Shown here piece by piece: positions 15,692 through 47,018 of a stretch of DNA of 64,000 nt. The first letter of the stretch is position 1, and each line of letters opens with the position of its first letter. This stretch comes from Tetmemena sp. SeJ-2015 (lineage: Eukaryota > Ciliophora > Spirotrichea > Sporadotrichida > Oxytrichidae), in the NCBI GenBank assembly GCA_027382625.1, contig JAJKFJ010020742.1, positions 53,734 through 117,733 of the forward strand, read 5' to 3'. The position numbers were made by a program, and so were the translations under genes. A model generated the notes under the pieces. It did not search any database. It had not been told where the DNA came from and saw nothing but the letters and a program-made list of their open reading frames with translations.

Positions 15692-17596
15692 AAACAATAT
15701 TTTAAATGAACTTTATTCCTTTAATTAGCATTTTTTCATGTTCATTATGATGATAAACATTATCTATTTTTTATAAAAGTATTTGCAGCCATTCAAAACC
15801 TCAGCAATCCTGGAATAGTGAACATGATTGACTTTATCCCCTCTGCTGTAGTCAAGAGAGAAAAAGCAGCATTCCTATAAATATGAATGGAAGTCTTTTG
15901 CTTAATTATAGGTATTTTATTTTGCAAGATATTTCTTCCACTAGATCATTGACGCACTTGAATATGTGCACGCCGCCGGCTACGCTCATAGAGATATCAA
16001 TACTAAAGAAATACTTAGCTGTTAAGATTGCAGACTTCGGTTTTGCTGCCCCCATCGCTGGAAGAACTGGAACTGGAGTGCTGACCACTAAGCTATACAA
16101 ATTATTCCCTACCAAGCCCCTGAAATCAATGAAGGGAAACCTTACTTTGGCGCACAAGTAGATCTTTATTTAAAACATATGATATCTATAATGATCTGTT
16201 TGCAACTGCAATAGTACTATTCATCACAGTAGCTGGAAATCGTTCTGCAAAATTAAAATGGAGATATTCAATACAAGCTGATAGCAGGAAAGAGATGGGA
16301 CTTGTTCTGGAAGTATCACATTAGAGGCAAGCCTGGTGGTGGAGAATAATAATCAGCTGACTTCCAAGATCTTATGGCTCCCTTCATTGTATCTTTGATC
16401 CAGCAGAGAGACTCAATATCCAAGGCATTAAGCAGCACCCTTGGTGGAATGGCGCAGTCCCTACTCACGAGCAAGTAGTAGAGGAGTTCACCACAAGAAA
16501 GCAAGTCAACGATGAAGAGTCTGCAAAGGAAAGGGCAGAAAGACAGGCTCAAAGAGCTAGGGGTGGCAAGTCTTACAATCAACCTAAGTCATTTAATTAT
16601 CTCATTTTAAAATAAATTTAATGAATGACAGACCAAATCTTACTGCCATAATATGTTTTAAGAAAATGCTGAGTTTAAATATATGTCTCAAAGACAAGAA
16701 AATGCTTTGAGAATCCTGACGATATTTTTGGAATACTAGAGAGTTTCTTTTTAGATAAGAGTGAAGATGAGGAAGTGAAGTTCTCTCCTAAAGAAGAGAC
16801 ATACAAGGCAAGACTAGAGTTTAGCAACAGTCAAGTTGAACTAGCTTTGCAAATTTATTTTATTCTACAAATGTACCTTTAATTATATAATTCAAAATTT
16901 TAATATCGTTTCTGTAATTATTTATCACAGCCTGGTGGTGCTAACTTCTTCTCAGCTGACTTCTAGTTCATAGCTCGCATGTTGGCTTACGATCCAGCTA
17001 TTAAAAAGCCATATTTATGACTTAGAAAGAATAAAAGATTGGATATTTTGAGATGACAGACGCAGAGGAATGGATACTTAAGATGAGGAGGAAAAAGTTG
17101 ATATTGAAACTTTCGAAATCTCAAAGCCAGTGACTCTTCTGCCTTCATTTGCAGGAATTCAGCGCAATCTACTCTTCATTCACGAGAATCTTTTACTTAT
17201 TAGAATTAAAAGAAGTTTCGTCTAAGCTAAGAGTGAATACAATAGATAGTAGTAATTAAATTAGTCTCTGCTTTGCAAATATATAGAGCACAAGAAGGCT
17301 AGGATTAGCATATAAAGTAAAGTAAAGTAAAATTTTAGGAATGGAATTAATAATCAATTTCAAATCTCAGCACTTAAAAGTACTAGATAAGAAACCGTAC
17401 TATTATCCTATGTAAGGATTAGCATATAAATAAATTAGAATATTAAGAGTATAAATAGGATCTATTTGCAATTGAGTTTGTAAGGAAAGGAGGTCCTCAA
17501 GAGGAGTTCTACAAGAAAGTGAAGGAATTAAAGAAGGAAATATTCCTCAACTTCTCCTATGAGATAGAGCAAGAAGAGGAAGAGCAAGATAATTGA
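15099..17596 (+). CDS. scrambled Ser/Thr protein kinase gene (odd/even segment order)
   Basis: Coding segments (MDSs) are out of order. Linking shared pointers rebuilds a kinase like the neighbour at 17.9 kb. Order with coordinates: 1, 15099-15281; 2, 15788-15859; 3, 15315-15435; 4, 15920-16000; 5, 15473-15516; 6, 16021-16091; 7, 15582-15602; 8, 16105-16165; 9, 16193-16238; 10, 15635-15691; 11, 16272-16341; 12, 16929-16998; 13, 16397 to about 16610. Pointers in order: GCCATTCAA, AAGAGA, TTTTG, AGAGATATCAA, GTTAAGATT, ACTAA, TTCCC, GATCT, GTAGCTGGAA, TACAAGCTG, AGCCTGGTGGTG, GATCCAGC. The result has LGSGAFSKVKLG (P-loop), YAVKI, AHRDIKPDN (catalytic loop), KIADFGFA, a YQAPE activation-segment end, and QHPWW. 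The C-terminal regulatory part (about 16640-17596, ending ...EEEEQDN) is also dispersed: DDIFGILESFF near 16720, DEEEKVDIETF near 17080, FAIEFVRKGG near 17465. Its segment order I did not fully resolve. Confidence 0.85.
15788..16610 (+). other. second block of kinase MDSs (2, 4, 6, 8, 9, 11, 13)
   Basis: The complementary segments lie here in increasing order. MDS 8 and 9 are consecutive and separated by an ordinary 32-bp IES with pointer GATCT (16161-16165 and 16193-16197). MDS 13 starts at GATCCAGC (16397) and codes for ERLNIQGIKQHPWW and a charged linker ending near 16610. Confidence 0.85.
16330..16404 (+). pseudogene. decayed in-place copy of kinase MDS 12
   Basis: Between the pointers AGCCTGGTGGTG (16330-16341) and GATCCAGC (16397-16404) lie 55 bp that align with the displaced MDS 12 at 16929-16998, which has 50 bp between the same pointers. 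Both share CAGCTGACTTC 12 bp after the first pointer. The in-place copy has the wrong length for the frame; the displaced copy reads ANFFSADFQFIARMLAYDPA in frame. Confidence 0.75.
16929..16998 (+). other. displaced functional MDS 12 of scrambled kinase
   Basis: Bounded by the 12-bp pointer AGCCTGGTGGTG and the 8-bp pointer GATCCAGC. Inserted between MDS 11 and MDS 13 it gives KPGGANFFSADFQF...AYDPAERL, matching NKAADYFSEEFKN...FDPTQRI in the unscrambled paralogue. Confidence 0.8.
17301..17430. mobile_element. SINE-like element, copy 1, with 16-bp target duplication
   Basis: A 98-bp element (17317-17414) is flanked by the perfect 16-bp repeat AGGATTAGCATATAAA (17301-17316 and 17415-17430). 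One end is a short tandem array of GTAAA units. Apart from one base and the repeat number, it matches copy 2 at 21.5 kb. It lies in the C-terminal part of the scrambled kinase locus. Whether excision restores coding here I could not decide. Confidence 0.85.
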
Positions 17597-17925
17597 TAAG
17601 CTCACTCTCTGATATAGATTAATCATCTTATAGTATAGATATGAATCACAGACTATCCTTAATGTTTATGTAAATTAGAAGTTCATCACTATTCATTATT
17701 CTTATTCTCTCATTCTTAAAAAAAGATACACTCTCTTTGTATCATATATACATAATGGATCGTGGAATCTATTCTTCGATAGGTGGGAAATGAGAGAAAA
17801 CTATCTTTGTGCCAGAAATTAATAGTTAATATCAATTAATAAAATAGAATATAGAGATGCGAAACTATTTTAAGCACTTAAAGCTATTTGATTCTAGCAA
17901 TAATTTAAAGAAACAAATCTTCAAT
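17597..17925. other. intergenic spacer
   Basis: AT-rich spacer between the scrambled kinase and its unscrambled paralogue. The frame is open upstream of the chosen ATG from 17857, but that part looks unlike coding sequence. No other feature seen. Confidence 0.5.
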
Positions 17926-19444
17926 ATGCCTTCTGTATTAGGAAAGTACCAACTTTTAAGAACCCTTGGATCAGGTGCCAACTCTAAAGTCAAGTTGGGT
18001 GTCGACAAAGCCACCAACAGACATTTCGCTGTCAAGATCCTCAAGAAGGGCAACCCTAACCTCGATTCCAAATTCTTGGAGCTTGTGATGACTGAGGTTC
18101 AAACCATGAGCCAGCTCAACCACCCTAACATCGTAAACCTGATAGAGTACGGCCAAGATGGCGTGGTCAAGAAGTCAAATGGAACCACCGAGAGCGTTAT
18201 CTACATCGTCCTCGAGTTAGCTCAAGGAGGTGAACTTTTCGACTATGTCGCATAGACTGGTCGCTTCTCCGAGCCCATCGCTCGTGCTTATTTCCACCAG
18301 CTCATTAATGGACTCGAGTATGTGCACAACAAGGGAATTACCCACAGGGATCTTAAACCTGAAAACGTCCTCTTTGATCAGTATTTCAATCTCAAGATTG
18401 CTGACTTTGGTTTCGCTATTGGAACCGAGGGCAGAGACGGCAGTGGCTACTGCAAGACCAAGCTTGGAACTGAGAGCTACATGGCTCCTGAGATCCACAT
18501 GCGCAAGCCCTACATCGGCACTTCAGTTGATCTGTTCGCCTGCGCCATCATTCTCTTCATCACCTTCACTCAGCACCCTCCCTTCACCAAGGCTGTACCT
18601 GAGGATCCCTTCTATAGGCTTCTTTGTGCTAACAGAGCAGACCTATTTTGGAAGGCTCACTCCAGAAACAAGGCCGCTGATTACTTCAGTGAGGAGTTCA
18701 AGAATCTTATCACTTCCATGCTCCAGTTTGATCCTACTCAGAGAATCTCACTTGCTGAGGTTAAGGCTCACCCCTGGTAAACTTTATAAGCAGCTTAAAA
18801 TGCATCTTATTATACATTCTTAGAGTCTATGATGTGAGTTTACACTGGCCCAGTGGCTTCTATGGACGATATTCGTCAGGAGTTTGCCAACCGCAAAGCC
18901 TTGATCGACCAGGAAAATGAGGCTAAGAGAATTGCCAAGGAGCAAGAGAAAGCCAACAGAGCCAACGGCGGTTTCGCAGCTCAGCGTAGAGTCTACCGCA
19001 AGGGTGCCGTGAACAGAAGCGATGCAGACACTAACGAAGAGAGCAAGTATGACGTTGAGTGTGTCAAGCAAAGACAACTTGACGAATATATTGGTGTGAG
19101 AAAGAACGTTACTGAGTTCTTCACCACCGAAGAGCCCCAACTTGTCTTTGATGAGCTCTAGGGATACTTTTCAGAGAAGGGCTACAAAGTCCAGGCTTCT
19201 GACGATAAACAATCTTAATCGATGAAGATACATCTCATATATCTCATTCGATAAGTTCAAGTTAAAGGTAGGAATAACAAGCGAGAAGGGAGAGCTATAA
19301 TACGAAGCAACCGTTCTCATTTCTAAGGTTGAGGGCGGAAAGTACGCAGTGGAGTTCAACAGGACTCAGGGAGACTGCCTTGATTTCATCAAGACTTTCA
19401 ACGCTATCAAGGAGGAGCTTGACCTTGAGGATGTATTCGCATGA
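17926..19444 (+). CDS. CAMK/SNF1-type Ser/Thr protein kinase, unscrambled paralogue
   Basis: Starts at ATG 17926 (MPSVLGKYQLLRTLG); an in-frame ATG at 17857 would add 23 unconserved residues. The full kinase domain is visible: GSGANSKVKLG (P-loop), FAVKILKK (Lys), HRDLKPEN, IADFGFA, TESYMAPEIH, ending RISLAEVKAHPW. A charged linker and a C-terminal globular part of about 110 residues follow, ending TFNAIKEELDLEDVFA, somewhat like the KA1-type ends of SNF1-related kinases. Two IESs interrupt it (18778-18840 and 19203-19248); their removal gives one frame to TGA 19442-19444. In-frame TAG codons at 18253 (VAQTGRF) and 19159 (ELQGYF) show the Gln reading. Codon use is more GC-rich than in its neighbours, which may mean high expression. 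The substrate is unknown. Confidence 0.9.
18778..18840 (+). other. TA-bounded IES with inverted ends
   Basis: A 63-bp insert flanked by TA (18778-18779 and 18841-18842). Removal gives HPWYTGPVASMDD and takes out the only in-frame TGA. No GT-AG intron choice keeps the frame. The insert starts TAAACT and, with the flanking TA, ends AGTTTA, a 6-bp inverted repeat. Confidence 0.8.
19203..19248 (+). other. IES, pointer CGATAA
   Basis: CGATAA at 19203-19208 and 19249-19254. Removing 46 bp gives VQASDDKFKLKVGI in one frame. The retained insert shifts the frame. Confidence 0.85.
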
Positions 19445-19728: not shown

Positions 19729-22659
19729 TCACTTTCTAGGATTGCTTGGGCATCCTTACTCAATAAGATGTTTCTTCCATCCTGATTCACCAGGCTTGAT
19801 ATCTTGATGACAAAGAGGGCATCTGTTTGCAGCCTTAGGAGGCTTACTAATTACGCAAGACTTTGAAGAGACGTGCTAGTCGTATTCGGTCTTTGCGATA
19901 CTCTCCTTGCAACGAGAGCATTACTTAAATTCAGAAGCCTTATCGCATTCTTTCAACAAGTGCTAATTATAAGTCTCAATCTCAATAACTTGACTGCAAT
20001 GTCTGCATTCAGTAAGCATCAAGCAATCTTTCCAGAAATGTAAGTCTAAATTCTCGTTCACTGCAAAGTTCTTATCTGCTCTTCCACAAAACTGACATTT
20101 TACAGACCCTTCTTCTCCCTTGACTCTTGATTTTCTCTGAGATGAATTGGGTTTAGATCCTGCGCTGCCACTAACTCTTGCATTAGCAGTTGAGATGCCT
20201 GGAACGCTTAGATCTTTACCTGGTGATCCTTTATTTTTCAAAGTAGCAGGATCTACCCCATCAATTTCTGCAAATCCAGTTTCTAGATGCTCCATTTGAG
20301 CTGGCCTCAAGCCATTTAAGTTCTTTTTAACTGAAGGACCAACAGATCTGTAAATTTCAAGGATTACATTATAAGCATGATTCCTAATATCTCCGTTTTA
20401 ATGCTGATAACCTGCTAATGAGTATTCCAAGCACTGCTGGTAGTTTATATTGTGCTTGCTCACAGGGTACTTTTGAATTATCTTATGAAGCAGCTACAAT
20501 CTTCCTTAAATATGCTTTACCGAAAATTGAGCGGACTTTTTAACTTGACCTTTCATAATGTTAGAGCAAACAGTTTAAGGCCCAAATGATTTGTGTCCAG
20601 CCATCATTAAAAGCAGCTCTTCTGCTTTTTCTCTTACTCTAGCATTGTTATCGCCAAGTCTAACAAAAAGTTGATTGAAAACCATTGCTGCCGAATTTCC
20701 AGGTTCCAATTAAGCGGAGCATGATTTGAGAGTTGTTTAGAGAAGAGACATACCTCTTTGAATAATTTGAGCTATTTTGTCGCCCATTGCTTAACCTGAA
20801 GCACTTAAAGCTGCCTGGAAAGTTTGAAGCTCAGAGCCATTCCTTTGAACTATCTTTTCACATTCTTTCAAACCTTCATCTCTTAATGCCCAGGGTCGAG
20901 AGAACATTTTCTTCACAACATCTTCTCCGAATACTGGGATAAGGCCCTCAGCATATTTCATATTATCAGGAGAAATCTCATCAACCTTTCCATCATCTTA
21001 ATCTTGTCCGTTTTCTTCAGCGGCACCTCCTTCCTCACCTTATCCTTTCTTACTCAAAGCTCCCTTACTAAGAGTTGGAATAACTTAATCATCATATGCA
21101 ACTGATGGTCTATTGAATGCCGCCACATTTTAGTTCTCATTCATAAAAAAATCATCTTATAGATTAAACAAGGATTTTTTCATTTGATTGATATCAGGAA
21201 AAAGAGACTATCTATTTGGAGACTCTTTTTTGCTGCCTGGTATTTGCAAATCTTGAATTTTAATCTCTTCATCGTTGCTTCTGTAATTATGATGATTATG
21301 CTAGTCTACATTAAATCCGCTAGCCTGCCTATTTGCAAATCCTTCTGTTTGCCTCCATATTAATGATCATCACCTTTTCTATCTTCATAATTCATAGAAG
21401 TAGCTTGTCCAAACGGACCCGCAAAATTTGAATTCATGCCAGCTCCACTTTCCCTTCCCATGTGGGAATATCCTCCCACAGGTATGGCAAGATTGTTTAA
21501 AGTAAAGTAAAGTAAAGTAAAATTTTAGGAATGGAATTAATAATCAATTTCAAATCTCAGCCCTTAAAAGTACTAGATAAGAAACCGTACTATTATCCTA
21601 TGTAAGCAAGATTGTTTAAAGTTTCTGTATGTCCAGCTGTCCCTCCAAGCCCAAACTAAGAGAAATTAGTTCCTCCTACTACAGGAGCTCCCTGTCCATA
21701 ATAGTTAGGAGGAAATTAAGGTGACTAAAACTGAGACTGCATCGCAGCTGCCTTCAGTTTTTCAATTTCAAACTTTATGATTTTCGCTGCATCATAATCC
21801 TCACTCTTTATAGCAAGAATTTTCCTTTCCTCGAGCTGAGAAATCTGCGTTGATACGATTTTAAGCCTATCTATAGTTTCTTTAATACGTTTTGCCTCGT
21901 CAAAGTTATCCATTTATACTGCTCTTTCTTTGGCAGCATAGAGAGCTTTACACTCTAATATAGATAAATAGAAGTTAATATCAAGCTTTCAAAGTTTCAA
22001 GGGTATTCTTATCCAGAGTAAGCTCCTCTTCTATGTTTGTAAGCTGAGGTCCTGTTAAGCTCTACTGAATCACAGAGCCTCTTCCCAAATTTTAAGCTGG
22101 AATCTACTGCTATGCTCCCATACTATACATTTCTCCCATGCAATTGACTGCAATGAGTCCTACTTAGTTGTATAGATTGAATTTATTCACGTAGCATTTG
22201 TGGAAAACCAATTTAAGCAGCAAAGTAACTGAGTCCACATACACACTCTTCAGTTCTCTAGCTTGAAACTGCGATCTTTCATTAGAGTCGAGCTGCAAAA
22301 AGCCTAGCTTAGTAAACTTAATCATGTTTAGAGGGATCTATGTGCTCAAGGCTTAAGGGCCAGTTGGGACATAAGTGTGGAGTTCTATCTTCTAAGAAAT
22401 CTTGGACTGATGAGAGAGAAATTGAATCTGCTTCAGGCGGACGATATTAGTGAATTGGATTATGATCTCCTGAGGATACTCGCAAAACTTGGGACTCTGC
22501 CACCCTCTACTTTGAGGAGAGTTATCGAGAAGCTCTGTCACTGGATATTCTGAATCCTCGCCTGTAGAGGAGAAGTTAGAGAAATATAAAGAGGGTACCT
22601 GAGCAATACACTATGCGGTATTTAAGTTTGTAGAGATTTATCTTTCCTGCGTTTGCCAT
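19729..22659 (-). CDS. CEP104: CEP104-like centrosomal/ciliary tip protein
   Basis: CEP104 binds microtubule plus ends and ciliary tips; it has an N-terminal jelly-roll, a coiled coil, a TOG domain and a C-terminal zinc-finger array. Visible: N-terminal GWQSPKFCEYPQEI, QARELKSVYVDSVT and YVNKFNLYNQVGLIAVN, close to the CEP104 N-terminal domain; a short coiled coil near 21725-21915; an alpha-helical TOG-like region 20350-20990; then CQFCGRADKNF, LDLHFWKDCLMLTECRHC and NRCPLCHQDI, three zinc-binding clusters as in CEP104. Start ATG 22659, stop TGA 19729-19731. One 37-nt GT-AG intron and a SINE-like insertion acting as an IES (21487-21605) are seen. A few frame changes remain in the middle. The family call is strong because both ends match. 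Confidence 0.85.
21487..21621 (-). mobile_element. SINE-like element, copy 2, inserted in CEP104 and behaving as an IES
   Basis: A 103-bp element is flanked by the 16-bp repeat GCAAGATTGTTTAAAG (21487-21502 and 21606-21621). On the minus strand, excision of 119 bp between the repeats gives TAGHTETLNNLAIPVGGYSH in one frame. With the insert (119 is not a multiple of 3) the frame is lost. So the target-site duplication serves as a 16-bp pointer. Confidence 0.9.
22562..22598 (-). other. GT-AG intron in CEP104
   Basis: The minus strand runs GTACCC...CTACAG, 37 nt with a pyrimidine-rich 3' half. Removal joins IVYCSG to EDSEYPVTEL in frame. Confidence 0.8.
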
Positions 22660-26159: not shown

Positions 26160-27350
26160 ATGGAAAACTACCTTCTCAAAGAATTAGAGCAATACAAGTA
26201 ATTCAGTACCTCCTTGTCAGAGTCACGGTTTCCAAAATGCAACTTGGATCCCTCACATTTAAGGCTACGAGTTCCTGAAGAGCAAATCTGGAAAGAAATC
26301 TGATTCAATCAACGAGTTTTTCAAAGATCAAGGAGAATACAGGAGCATTTTTCCTAAGACACTTTCAAATTGGCACATTGCTCTAAAATCTGAACTTGTG
26401 GAGCGCAGGACTAAGGGACAGTGTTTGCAGCAGCCTTCTTTATTGGGGAGCTGGTGAATGATCTCAATTGCTACATCCTTCACATGGCAACGAGGGTAGG
26501 ATTTTGGAGCCAGGGCTATGGCAAAGCGTTCCTGGAAGATGTGGTGCAGTATATGTAGCAGCAGGAAGTTTATAGTCTAAGGAGCATGACACTTGTGACT
26601 GCATTACGTTCGTAATCTAGCGCTGCTGAGTACTTCTATAAAATGGGGTTTTCTGAGAATATCGAGCTTCGATACAGGGGCCTTGAATGGCAGGGAAAGA
26701 AGGTGATGTGTCATCGAATTGGTAAAAGTTTCGAGCAAGAATAATCAAAAATGGAAAGGCATAATCCAACCCCGCCAATTCGCACCCTTGAACACCCCGC
26801 CAATTCGCACCATGCTCAGAAAATTTTCAGCAATCTAGAGAGCAGTGTGAAATATGATTTGTCAAGCTAGGCACCCATCCGAAATAAGGAGAAGGCTCAC
26901 GCGCGGGTCTTCAGAGGCTAAGAAGGAATTGACAATGGTTGTGAGGTGAAGGGACCTAGTCAAGAAGAGGAGGACGATAGAGAGAGGTTAGACAACAGCG
27001 CAAAGAAGAGTCCCAAGAGAAGCCATAACCTGCCGAGCAAGGCAAAGCTATTATCGAAGAGAAAAGTTATGGATAGAGATGACGCTCAGGCTCAAGAATG
27101 CGAGTAGATGAGATAGAGCAAAGGATTTGAAGGCTAACAGCTCAATGAGGTCTTGAAAACTAGAGACGGGACTTTCTACAAGCATTGCTGTTTCAAGGGA
27201 TGCAAATCGCTTAAACCTATTTCGGGGGACCACTGGAGCAGGCATGCGTCGTCACATAAGAAAAAACTTCTTCCAAGGAGACAATTGTGTACAAGATATG
27301 TGATGGAGACTCGTGCACGACATGCTCAGACAGTAAGTTCTGCCAAATGA
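26160..27350 (+). CDS. GNAT-like acetyltransferase frame continuing into a zinc-finger-like C-terminus
   Basis: From 26420 one frame is open to TGA 27348-27350. Its first part reads VFAAAFFIGELVNDLNCYI, TRVGFWSQGYGKAFLEDVV, then SSAAEYFYKMGFSENIE, which fits a GNAT fold: Q/R-x-x-G-x-G/A-like acetyl-CoA loop (SQGYGKAF) and a YxxxGF end. The C-terminal part is basic and has HCCFKGCKS...HWSRHASSH, a possible C2H2-type finger. Upstream (26160-26420) the frame changes twice. The GC-rich inverted repeats at 26769-26811 and 27406-27446 bracket the zinc-finger part, so the join of the two parts may come from a mobile insertion rather than a true fusion. GNAT call moderate; finger call tentative. Confidence 0.5.
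26769..26811 (+). repeat. left pair of GC-rich 18-bp repeats
   Basis: Two direct copies of ACCCCGCCAATTCGCACC at 26769-26786 and 26794-26811 (period 25 bp). The same 18-mer appears inverted at 27406-27446. Its GC content contrasts with the AT-rich surroundings. Confidence 0.9.
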
Positions 27351-37535: not shown

Positions 37536-40178
37536 TCAAGTGTCGAAATTAATCCCTTCTTTAAGCATTTTCTTGAGATAAGCACTTACTACTGGATCTT
37601 GAACCCCATCCCAAGTTTCTTTTATTTCCTTCCTCAGAGTGGTCATCAGTTTTACCTTCATCTCCCCATCTCCTTGAGCCATTTAAGTAAGCCCCTTGGT
37701 TGCAATTCTCATTCCATTCAAATTTTCAGTATCCTTGATATAGTCAATAAATAGTTCCAATCCTTTATTGAAAGTAATGTAAGATTTGAGATATTCTCTG
37801 GAAGTGAGGTTAGTCAGAGTTTATAGAGCATAGTTTCTATAAACCACAGGATTATTTCTTTTCTCCTAGCAAATCTGAATCAGGTATTAACAATTTAAAG
37901 TGTTTATAATTTTTTTTTAAGTATGGGATATGAATATGGAAGGTGATATCGATTCTATCCCTAGCTGACTTCTTGGCATTCCCTTCTAGGTCAGCTGGAT
38001 CCGATATCTCGCAGATAGTTTTGATTGCTGCATTTCTAATTTCCTAGTTCTAGAACAGAGTGAGATTGATTAAGAGTGGAATGTCTATTTCGTCTCTGGT
38101 ATAGCTCAGTACTTTATATATCAAATCCACTATCAACTTCTTAATATTCGAATTCTGGAATTTTAAGTTCTTCAGTACTCTGTTTATACCATTATTTTCA
38201 AGAATGTCTTAAGCGCGGATCAAGGTAAGATTTTGAACTAAACGCTCTGCTACACGGAATTAAGACTAAGACACATCTGTTCAAAAAAATATTGAAAAAA
38301 AGAAAGTTTCTTAAAAGATCTGTTGGGAAGTTATGATACTCGAATAACTGAAAGCCAAAAGAAAGAGGTACTTGTCCTGCATCACATCTCTAATTGCCTC
38401 TAAAATTAATTAAAACATAAGCAAGAAAGACTTACACATTCCCATGTTATCTATAGAATGAAGTGCAAACACGATTATATCTCTTTAATTTATCTCTGGA
38501 TTAAGCATAGTGCAATAGTCTTTGAGAAGATCTCCGCTGTAAACCATCTGTATAGGTGGCAGTTTTTCTAAGCTAGGATACTATCCTTTAAAGAAAGTGA
38601 CTTTGTAAGGATTTATGAGGTATGAACCAGTTCTATCAGTGGTTAAATTTTCCTTTTTAGATGTATACCCTCCTTGAGAATACTTTTACTGAATTTCTTA
38701 CTCCTAAAAGTAGCATGGATCATGAGAGTGCTTGGGTGATTAAACTGTGGAAATGATTTATAAGCCTCCAGAATGTTTTAAATTTGATGGTCTTTGCTGA
38801 GTTGGAATCATGGGAAGAACAGCTGTGGACTAAGAAGCTCTAAGAGTTTTCGAAGTGCCTTATTCTGAAGTATAAAGTTTTCTTTCTTCAAAATCATCCT
38901 GTCCAAATCTAACTTGCTTATTAGGATCTCTATATTTTTTAGACCTGGAAACTGCTACATTAGGTGTTTGCGCATAGTTAGGTTTGATTCCCCTTTCCAA
39001 GTGCTTATGATGAAGAGGTACTTTGTAGAGATTTGAGCGGGAGATGATATTCCCATCGGGTTTACAGATCGAATCTACATCTCTCCAATTGTAAAAGTGA
39101 GCTTTATTGTACTCTGGCAAAGTTTTGATGTCTATAGTTGAGGAGAGAGTCGAGACTACTCTAAATATTTGATTCTTTTCAGAAGGAGAAAGAGTAGGAT
39201 CCTAGGCCATCTTCTATAGCTTTTCCATAGCTTCTCTCTGCTATTTAAAATTTGACATGAAGGTCCATGATCTAGAGAGGCATTCCAAAGTCTGCATCGT
39301 ATTTATCAGGACGAGTTATAAATTAATAATCAATTGAACACATTTGAAGTTAATCTTTGTCTATTAAATCAGTGCACCAGTATTGCAGAACTAGTACGAG
39401 CAAATTGTATAAAAAAATTATTAGGCTTTATAATTGAGTGTATTCTTATTTTCCTCTTTATCAAATTCGATAGCAAGTGGACTTGTGATTATCTTATTAA
39501 GAGTGAGGGCTAGATTTTGAACCTATCTGACATCTTTAGTCATACCCATGGCAGCTGTATTTCTAATTAGCTCCAGCTTGTCATCGTATCTTTGGATAGA
39601 AGCCTCAGTTAATTTAGAGGCCATTGACTTCTATTGATCCTGCAACTGATTTATTAAGTCAGTTGCAGGAGTCTTGAACTGGCAGGTGCAAAACTAATCG
39701 CAATTATGCTCGAATAACTTCTCCTTTTCAGGATAAGCAACTAAACTCTCACCTATAAGAGATAATTAAGGAGATGAAATATAAGTACCGTTCTTTAGGA
39801 CCTCTCCTACTTTTGAAGAGTTAGGAAGAACATACCCAGAGGTCAAGCAAAGATTCTTGATGTAATAGGTTGGATCTCGAGGAAACTCATTTCTAAATTC
39901 TTTTTCAATCTGTCGCTTCAATTGCACGATGTTGAACAAAGCTAAACTATTAAATACCTTATTTTTACTTGATGCTGAAAGCACTAGCCTCTTGTAATTA
40001 TTATATTATATTACTCACTTATAAAGATAATTGCTTTAAATTTGTAGTCAGACTTGTCTTGATGCTTTAGTGAGACATAAAGTTTAAATTAGCTGTCATC
40101 TTTATAGAGAAGATCTTCCTATGATTAGGCTCTCCTCCCTCTCGAGTGTAGATTAGCCTCGCTCTATGACACCTTCAT
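37536..40178 (-). CDS. armadillo/HEAT-repeat protein
   Basis: ATG 40178 starts MKVSQSEANLHSRGRRAQS; stop TGA 37536-37538 after KKMLKEGINFDT. An N-terminal beta-rich part (FNSLALFNIVQLKRQIEKEF, LCLTSGYVLPNSSKVGEVL) resembles a ubiquitin-like or doublecortin-like fold. A helical part (LINQLQDQQKSMASKL) and a basic segment with PNKQVRFGQDDFEERK near 38880 follow. The C-terminal third shows armadillo-like helices: NGINRVLKNLKFQNSNIKKL, EIDIPLLINLTLFQNQEIR, YALQTLTNLTSREYLKSYI, GLELFIDYIKDTENL. AT-rich inserts near 40000, 39400, 38400 and 37900 split it. The layout suggests a scaffold, possibly ciliary; no named family is secure. Confidence 0.6.
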
Positions 40179-44722: not shown

Positions 44723-47018
44723 ATGAAAACTCCAGCTTGCGCAAAAACCCTTAAACCTGCATCTAATCCCCCTCCTTTGCGATCTAAATAGATTTAGAAA
44801 GCAAAGCCCACTTCAAGTTCAAAACCTTAGACTAAGACTAAATCTAAGAAACTAAATCTAAGCAAGCAGCCAAACAAACCTACTTCTGCTAAAGTTTCAA
44901 AAGCCAAGAGAGTTTGCAACAGACCAAAAACTTCCAAAGTTACAGCTAACAAGACTCAAAGTAAAGAGAGCAAGAAGAGGAGTCAGATTTCAAAAGCTAA
45001 GTTGAAGACTGCTTTGCCAAGCCAAGTTCATCCTAAACCAACCACAAAAGCTTAAATTTATAATTAGCTTCACTCAATCACTCAAAAGGAAAGCTTAAGA
45101 AAGAAGAAGATAGAGATCAAGACTAGATCTCAATCAGTTTCCAAGAGGAAGCCCTAGGATAAATAAATATTCCTATATTTTGATAACAATCAATTCTAGC
45201 TTTCGCCTCTTTAGTTGACTGACAGAAAGGGAGTTTACTTCAAACGTACTCCTAAGTAGTCTGCTTCGAAACAAAAACACTCTTTCACTCAAAATGTTAG
45301 CAGAGTTCCTCCATGCCAGAGCCCCCTCAAGCAACAAGGAAAAACGAAGCAAGATACAGTTTAAACTTCTAGAATTAAATCTTCTGAGTCAGTAGGTAAT
45401 ATTTAATGATAGTGGTTGCCCACTGAGTTAAAAGTATCCCTACAAAATATAAAACTAAAGCCATCTAGGATAATAGTACGATTTTCTAACTAGTACTGTA
45501 ATAAGTGCTGGTTTTAAAATTGATTATTATTTATATTCCCTAAATTTTACTTTACTTTAAATGTTCTGAGTGAAAAAGAGCTGTCAAAACTCTAACCAAG
45601 GAAAAGGGTCCTCTCAAGAAGAGGAATTTTAAAGGTGCTTTTGAAAATGAATCAAAGAAAGTAAGGAAGTTGGTTTTTACAATTATCTTGTAGAGAAGCA
45701 AGCCTGTCGAAAGGAGTGATAATATGAAAAAAAGAGATAAAAAGACTCAAGAAAAGCAGAAGACCTCTTACCAGCCAAGAGAAAATATAGACCAACACCA
45801 AAGTTTTAGAATTTGTGAGGAAGGTGAGCCCAGGAAAGCAAGGTGTTATTAAACAGGCGCTCCTCCAAATCTTGTCAGTTCTAAAAGAAAGTCTCCTTCT
45901 TTTCAGATAAAAAATAGCAAGCAGGCATGCTCGTCATCTCAAAACAGAATATAAATTAAGAGATCTTGCACTCCTTTGAGATCTCAAGCCTTTGGAAAGA
46001 TCTCTTCTCCAGTTTAAAATAAATATACCTAATTTTATACAAGAGATTAAATGCTTTATAAAGAGAAATATCGCATCTATAAGATTAACACACCTTAGAT
46101 TTAAAGTAAATTTGTGAAGAAATAAATCCTTAAAATGATGATTATATTTTGAATAATTTTTAAGATTATTTTAATGAGGAAATAAAAGTTTTGCCTTTGC
46201 TTAAGATGAATTCACGAAGGAAAGTTTTTATTTTAAAGCCTAGAAAAAGAGCGATAATTTGAACTTAGACAGCTGCAAAAGGTAAAACATTGGTTTGAGT
46301 CCTCCCCCAGCCAATTAGTACTAATCTTCGATTGATGTACCACCTTTGGATTTAGCACCTTTGCTTAAGCAGAGAATGTTGGAAGCCTCTTCTTCTGTTT
46401 AAGATTTGACTAAGACTAGTATGAGGTAGAGAGGCCTTTCTTCAAAAGCTTTTAAGGATAATTAAATGCAAGAAGAAGAAAAAGAGGTGGAGAAGTTTCC
46501 TAGACTTTCTAGCTAGACTTTTGTAAGCTCTCATTTCAAGAAGAATGAGTCAATTCAAAAGCAGGATCTTATCCTTCAAACTAGAAAGACCCTCCAAGAT
46601 CATCACAGTAGAGCAAGTCCAGTAAAGAGATAAATCAGTTCATTTATATTTCAAAATTAGATGAATGTGGTGATGATTGTATCACTGATCTTTGTAAAAC
46701 TTCACAGAAAATTTTAAAAAGATAGACAAAGAAAGTAGTCAGGACTGAACAACTCCAACTTCAAGCTCCAATTGAAAACTTCTGAAAGCATGGCGAGAAA
46801 GTAATCTACTCTTTAGCAAAATATCTTCCTATTTTATTAAATTTATCTCAAAGCATCTAAGTCTCTCTCAAAATTCTAGCCCTCAATAAGTTCCAAGTAA
46901 TCACACTAAAAATATAAATCATATTTTGCAAATACTTTCTAATTACTTAATTAACTTAATTTTTAAAAAAATTCTCTCAAATGGAATTCTATCTAGTAGT
47001 TTTATTTTCTTTAAATTT
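44723..47018 (+). CDS. Lys/Ser/Pro-rich basic protein B, tandem relative of A
   Basis: ATG 44723 starts MKTPACAKTLKPASNPPPL and continues as K/S/T/P-rich sequence (KAKPTSSSKPQTKTKSKK, KTQSKESKKRSQISK, KKKIEIKTRSQSVSKRK). Its composition and direction match gene A, so the two may be tandem paralogues, though I could not align them by eye. AT-rich inserts occur near 45160 and 45400-45560, the latter being SINE-like copy 3. Later parts are Leu/Ser-rich with basic clusters (LSSKAFKDNQMQEEEKEVE near 46430). The end is uncertain; the last open frame reaches TGA near 47018, but the coding pattern fades after about 46900. Confidence 0.5.
45382..45571 (+). mobile_element. SINE-like element, copy 3, longer and diverged
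   Basis: Positions 45456-45560 match copies 1 and 2 in reverse orientation (AGGATAATAGTACG..., ...AAATTTTACTTTACTTTA) with many substitutions. This copy extends about 70 bp further on the other side. The repeat TTCTGAGT lies at 45382-45389 and 45564-45571 as a likely target duplication. Joining at it leaves a TGA in frame, so clean excision is not shown here. Confidence 0.65.

Follow-up and report, generated by a model that had tools for sequence, protein, structure and literature searches.

The CEP104 gene and its insertion

The window analyzed here, a 64-kb stretch of DNA in its entirety, carried a CEP104 gene (Table 1). A domain search placed the Pfam families CEP104_N, CEP104-like_TOG, and CEP104_ZnF on the minus strand. 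In a database search, the top protein match was Stylonychia lemnae CEP104, with 69% identity over the 860 residues searched, which points to a Stylonychia-related ciliate; the spliced query used for the Stylonychia comparison and the paralogue search was about 30 residues short around positions 21341-21252. The 40-bp insert flanked by AAAGCT was missing from the Stylonychia protein, and in the sequence as printed it lacked GT-AG borders. This insert resembled an ordinary IES, which suggests that the contig is of germline type.

Table 1. Features of the window that bear on the CEP104 insertion (positions are those of the whole window)
Feature	Position	Strand	Remarks
CEP104 gene	19729..22659	-	ATG at 22659; TAA/TAG read as Gln, TGA is stop
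CEP104 intron	22562..22598	-	37 nt, GT-AG; Stylonychia protein continuous there
Candidate ordinary IES	21950..21989	-	40 bp; AAAGCT repeated at 21949-21944
Target-site duplication, copy B	21606..21622	+	Adjoins 5' end of element
SINE-like element, short form	21504..21605	-	Same strand as CEP104
TGA stop in CEP104 frame	21557..21559	-	If element is kept
Target-site duplication, copy A	21487..21503	+	GCAAGATTGTTTAAAGT; adjoins 3' tail of element; candidate pointer
Sister short-form SINE	17301..17430	-	Own 16-bp duplication (17301-17316 and 17415-17430)
Long-form SINE	45375..45571	+	5' head, body, and tail at 45390-45556; 15-bp duplication, 1 mismatch

The SINE-like element in CEP104 began with the 5' end TTACATAGG at position 21605 and finished with a (TTTAC)n tail near 21504-21521. 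An earlier note on this DNA described perfect 16-bp flanking repeats; the identity was indeed perfect, but the measured length was 17 bp. The two repeats lay 119 bp apart (start to start), and the inserted unit was therefore 119 bp, the sum of the 102-bp element and one repeat copy. After removal of low-complexity words, the window had three places at which an exact 16-mer recurred within 300 bp, compared with none in 20 Markov-simulated windows. Two of the three places were the duplications of the CEP104 element and of its sister copy. The third was the 16-mer ACCCCGCCAATTCGCA at 26769 and 26794 (26769-26809, spacing of 25 bp).

Deletion of the 119 bp joined ...TETLNNLA directly to IPVGGYSHMG..., and the product was colinear with the Stylonychia lemnae CEP104 sequence ...TDTLQNMALPMG..., without inserted residues where the two parts meet. 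It had been claimed that excision gives an uninterrupted frame. This was correct at the junction, but the restored frame was open only from the 40-bp AAAGCT insert (21989-21950) to a break near 21345-21350. There, the frame departs from that of the Stylonychia orthologue by a single-base break, which is independent of the SINE and is either an error of assembly or a genuine lesion. The CEP104 element diverged from the short-form consensus by about 1%. The insertion is real and recent, and the repeats, the sister copies, and the colinearity with Stylonychia gave good support to the description of it as a SINE-like element with a target duplication in a CEP104 exon.

The stretch at 21341-21252, where 12-bp repeats lie 89 bp apart, was also considered as a further IES, and deletion of these 89 bp kept the frame open. 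This idea was ruled out and the stretch was taken as coding because the Stylonychia protein carries corresponding residues; the frame break lies just upstream.

The assembly (146 Mb in 5213 contigs) was searched with the right flank of the insertion as DNA and with the CEP104 protein. One close CEP104 copy was present, and it was filled by the SINE. No second near-identical CEP104 locus, and none free of the SINE, was detected in these searches, which also yielded distant CEP104 paralogues at 34-63%. Elsewhere in the window, a protein kinase frame at 17794-18837 had a complete kinase domain and ended in TGA; an open frame continued in the same phase directly past this codon (18835-18840).

A SINE-like family across the assembly

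A 39-nt core of the element had 110 matches in the assembly with at most 3 mismatches, and the reversed-pattern control had 0. Among the 100 matches listed, 71 were perfect over the 39 nt, which bears out the near-identical sister copies reported previously. We examined copies with a match of 80 bp or more: 70 of the short form and 26 of a second subfamily. The earlier note had called for a search for further copies with duplications, and these proved abundant: repeats of 11-20 bp, with a median of 14, flanked 67/70 short-form copies. The repeat was perfect in 57 of these 67 copies, and 11 mismatches were counted in 957 letters. The duplications were locus specific; they started at the fixed 5' end of the element and right after the (TTTAC)n tail, the length of which varied among copies. 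In the second subfamily, a flanking repeat was found at the short 5' end in 17/26 copies, and many of the 9 copies that had no repeat at the short end were long forms. The duplications started with TTTA in 22/84 cases and with TTAA in 9/84 cases. These starts resemble the tail, which is expected if the tail RNA pairs with the nicked target.

The sister copy in the window was 99% identical to the CEP104 element over 104 bp. Long forms carried about 75 extra bases at the 5' end. Eight of these, which were chosen by a CCATC motif in the head and included the window copy, were tested (the long-looking L087, at the same site as L086, and L061 were left out). Seven of the eight had repeats of 13-16 bp at the longer 5' end, none with more than 1 mismatch, and the eighth, L081, had a weak repeat there. 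The long form in the window was located near the point where an open frame ends, and its head folded into a stem with an inner hairpin. Two long contigs shared one SINE insertion at an identical coordinate (G000:C1866:48554 and G000:C3720:48554); they are either haplotype copies or an assembly duplication.

The family is a SINE-like retroposon. Most copies examined have a target-site duplication of variable sequence, within the range of about 7-20 bp typical of SINEs (67/70 short-form and 17/26 second-subfamily copies), and the copies are short and dispersed (110 core matches) with a simple-repeat 3' tail, (TTTAC)n. The assembly gave 14 reverse-transcriptase (RVT_1) matches, 13 of which were over the cut-off; a partner LINE may be among them. 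ARAGORN predicted no tRNA in 7 long-form loci or anywhere in the window, and neither 5 long-form loci nor window positions 21000-22000 had an Rfam match at the gathering score. Because a Pol III head was sought and none was recognized, the family was filed as SINE-like and was not named as a SINE class; the head may contain a divergent Pol III promoter.

Other identities were considered and rejected. There was no inverted repeat of at least 12 nt at the ends of the CEP104 element; the absence of terminal inverted repeats and the long, variable duplications spoke against a MITE or a Tc1/mariner (TBE-type) element. An introner was rejected because the element ends lack a fixed GT or AG. Like a hypotrich IES, the CEP104 element lies between coding pieces and has direct-repeat flanks, on a contig that is probably germline.

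RNA folding of the window long form gave z = -4.31 relative to shuffles, and a composite of long copies gave z = -3.76. The fold of the CEP104 copy was less clear (z = -2.41, with 3/200 shuffles equally good), and no compensatory change was found at 20 predicted pairs in ten SINE bodies.

Insertions in other genes and their empty sites

Twenty excised frames were picked from scored copies, and 10 of these were chosen for a Pfam test. A relevant family was found in 6/10 (Plus-3, S9 peptidase, LRR, response regulator, UCH, and kinase), and the other 4 gave none. The response-regulator match took in the junction near its start, and the S9, UCH, and kinase matches were downstream of the junction only. 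In RTF1, deletion at the duplication gave an alignment to the RTF1 of solved structures with no gap at the junction; the corresponding deletion in a gene for a leucine-rich-repeat (LRR) protein also left no gap. For these two genes, as for CEP104, deletion at the duplication alone was sufficient.

Two copies had a different arrangement. The SINE at L100 (G000:C1899:18650-19350) was located within a 149-bp, GAGTAT-flanked candidate IES in an adenylosuccinate synthetase gene. Its duplication was 17 bp with one mismatch, and the right GAGTAT overlapped the SINE's own duplication. Removal of the SINE and one duplication copy alone left the gene still broken, whereas removal of the whole 149-bp insert yielded a gap-free junction relative to solved adenylosuccinate synthetases. 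Other matches to this enzyme in the assembly were 45-50% identical. If that adenylosuccinate synthetase gene is used, then the L100 SINE must be removed. Two of the matches (G000:C3167:129326-129643 and C3721:55322-55642) lay in frames of 466 and 438 aa, respectively, with no stop codons read through, and they are perhaps bacterial contamination in the assembly. At L030 (G000:C2013:53671-56709), the SINE duplication adjoined a probable 15-bp ATCAT-repeat insert in the response-regulator domain. Joint removal produced MYKIVIMDINMPGMDG and a better Pfam score (58.4 versus 55.1 bits). For SINE copies that are in or beside another candidate IES, the duplication can thus be something other than the whole pointer.

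We then turned to pre-insertion sites. The flanks of 13 insertions, CEP104 not among them, were joined such that one repeat was kept, and the assembly was searched with the products. Contiguous copies that were free of the SINE were found at 7/13 loci (L029, L017, L063, L020, L110, L014, and L102). The best copy per locus was 91-99% identical, and L020 also had partial ones at 83-84%. The SINE-free copies indicated that the flanking repeats at these seven loci were true target-site duplications. Only a filled copy was found at 6/13 loci (L064, L041, L030, L027, L098, and L100). Some of the SINE-free copies were past position 40,000 of their contig and hence were not gene-sized macronuclear molecules. 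Some insertions are therefore polymorphic or are present in one of several related copies; RTF1, for example, had one filled and two empty copies in the assembly.

Exon occupancy was assessed with 83/97 copies; copies were dropped if they lacked a repeat (8), lay in the window (3, including CEP104), had repeats below 10 bp (2), or had a short flank (1). The coding score was a rough one, based on codon usage trained on five window stretches that included CEP104, and the same-locus controls were positions 600-1200 bp from the SINE site. SINE sites were coding on both sides at roughly the same frequency as same-locus positions (9/83 versus 35/334 under a stricter threshold, 14/83 versus 71/334 under the other). 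The overall coding score was lower at SINE sites than at the same-locus controls (medians of -7.8 versus -5.4, p = 0.03). By comparison with positions tiled across the window, SINE sites were less often coding (14/83 versus 90/299, Fisher p = 0.018; 9/83 versus 55/299, p = 0.13, under the stricter threshold), although gene density may be higher in the window than at the other SINE loci. If exon insertions were left unexcised, strong depletion should be seen, unless most of them are too young.

The duplications showed no clear protection from mutation. In short copies, 1.2% of duplication letters were mismatched at an element divergence of 1.1%, and the values for the second subfamily were 3.3% and 5.1%; repeat detection in itself favors similar repeats.

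The target duplication as a candidate IES pointer

Hypotrich pointers are short direct repeats at MDS-IES borders and have no fixed sequence. Most of the case for a transposon origin of IESs is built on DNA transposons, whose duplications are short. The borders of Paramecium IESs are TA and so differ from the long, locus-specific repeats of the SINE-like family. We think it probable that a recent SINE-like retroposon copy in a CEP104 exon is excised as an IES at its 17-bp duplications. A LINE-type reverse transcriptase would have copied the SINE RNA into a nicked, T-rich target directly in the exon. The developing macronucleus would treat the element as germline-limited DNA and remove it as an IES, and joining at the 17-bp duplications would leave one copy and the ancestral reading frame. 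Because hypotrich pointers are short direct repeats of no fixed sequence, the target duplication would be able to serve as one as soon as the element is inserted. Other SINE copies lie in or beside candidate IESs and would be lost together with them.

The earlier note went further and stated that the duplication works as a pointer. The insertion, its duplication, and the class of the element stood up to analysis; the pointer role in CEP104 is a plausible but unproven inference from the sequence. The main argument offered, namely that deletion restores the frame, did not survive, because any exon insertion with a target duplication behaves in this way, excised or not; frame restoration is therefore no evidence of excision. 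Indeed, deletion between the 12-bp repeats described above, with their 89-bp spacing, also kept the frame open, yet that stretch is coding. Support for excision beyond the frame comes from exon occupancy, for which the picture is mixed, from L100, and from the response-regulator copy, and it is circumstantial.

The insertion might instead mark a recent null or polymorphic allele of CEP104 from which the SINE is not excised, with a SINE-free allele or a paralogue supplying the function. We consider this unlikely, but several results fit it: the CEP104 element is close to the consensus, SINE-free copies exist at 7/13 insertions tested (including RTF1, with its one filled and two empty copies), CEP104 has the extra frame break near 21345-21350 as well as distant paralogues, and SINE sites are coding less often than window positions. 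The insertion could also be heterozygous in a collapsed contig. On the other hand, the assembly contained no SINE-free CEP104 copy, only filled copies were found at 6/13 tested loci, and the stricter threshold revealed no exon depletion relative to same-locus controls.

It is very improbable that the CEP104 element, as germline DNA, is lost as part of an IES that is larger or was there before it, such that the duplication is incidental. This appears to be so for the adenylosuccinate synthetase copy with its 149-bp GAGTAT insert, and perhaps for the response-regulator copy with its 15-bp ATCAT insert, but once the CEP104 element is deleted, the two flanks align with Stylonychia without additional residues between them, so no older insert remains. 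Splicing of the element from RNA as an introner-like intron is scarcely credible. Twenty-five GT-AG pairs in and around the element would keep the frame open (for example, 113 nt from 21585), but 0/25 gave the protein that was obtained by deletion at the repeats. Moreover, the element ends show no fixed splice dinucleotides, and the flanking duplications vary by locus.

Excision of the CEP104 element at its duplications, the reading that we prefer, has partial parallels in known systems. The cited accounts of the TBE transposons of Oxytricha and Tetmemena (Tc1/mariner) describe excision at ANT target-site duplications (PMC6765146, PMC9797194), and one of them raises the possibility that a TBE insertion gives rise to a new rearrangement junction instead of landing in an IES that is already present (PMC9797194). 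As there described, TBE is, like the present family, a germline mobile element for which the target duplication is the excision border (a candidate border in our case). However, TBE is a DNA transposon of approximately 4 kb that has terminal inverted repeats and duplicates 3 bp of its target, whereas the CEP104 family is an approximately 100-bp retroposon in which we found no inverted repeats and in which the duplication is 11-20 bp. The Bogo/BogoMITE IESs ("MITIES") of Blepharisma stoltei are likewise short, non-autonomous, and high copy in eliminated DNA, according to the report on them, but BogoMITE is a MITE: it has inverted repeats, and its putative duplication is TAA (PMC9942856). The same report places more reverse-transcriptase sequences in the somatic genome of B. 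stoltei than in the assembled IESs (PMC9942856). Mobile IES families in Paramecium exons resemble the present family in that recent insertion waves can be dated within coding exons; the main text of that paper does not contain "SINE" or "retrotransposon" as whole words (PMC8354472). The putative SINEs of the Paramecium tetraurelia micronuclear genome are also non-coding germline repeats with LINE relatives in the same genome, but they were annotated from insertions in other elements, and the relevant part of the account describes no exon insertion or precise excision (PMC5405496). Among the titles and abstract openings surveyed, none dealt with SINE duplications that act as IES pointers; this set lay largely outside the subscription literature and leaves absence unproven.

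More generally, we lean slightly toward the idea that LINE-driven retroposition is an ongoing source of new IESs in this ciliate, in which each SINE carries a long pointer from birth and spreads through coding sequence cheaply. If this is true, then a retroposon with ready-made pointers of 11-20 bp would be an independent route to IESs, and a retroposon in an exon would be nearly neutral at once. Copies in or beside an existing IES would lengthen it and could lend or move its pointer. One assembly offers a dated series of perfect copies, diverged copies, and filled and empty sites. Copies of known starting state open the questions of the pointer length that is needed and of pointer decay. About a hundred SINE loci carry the same excision prediction, which can be read in macronuclear reads.
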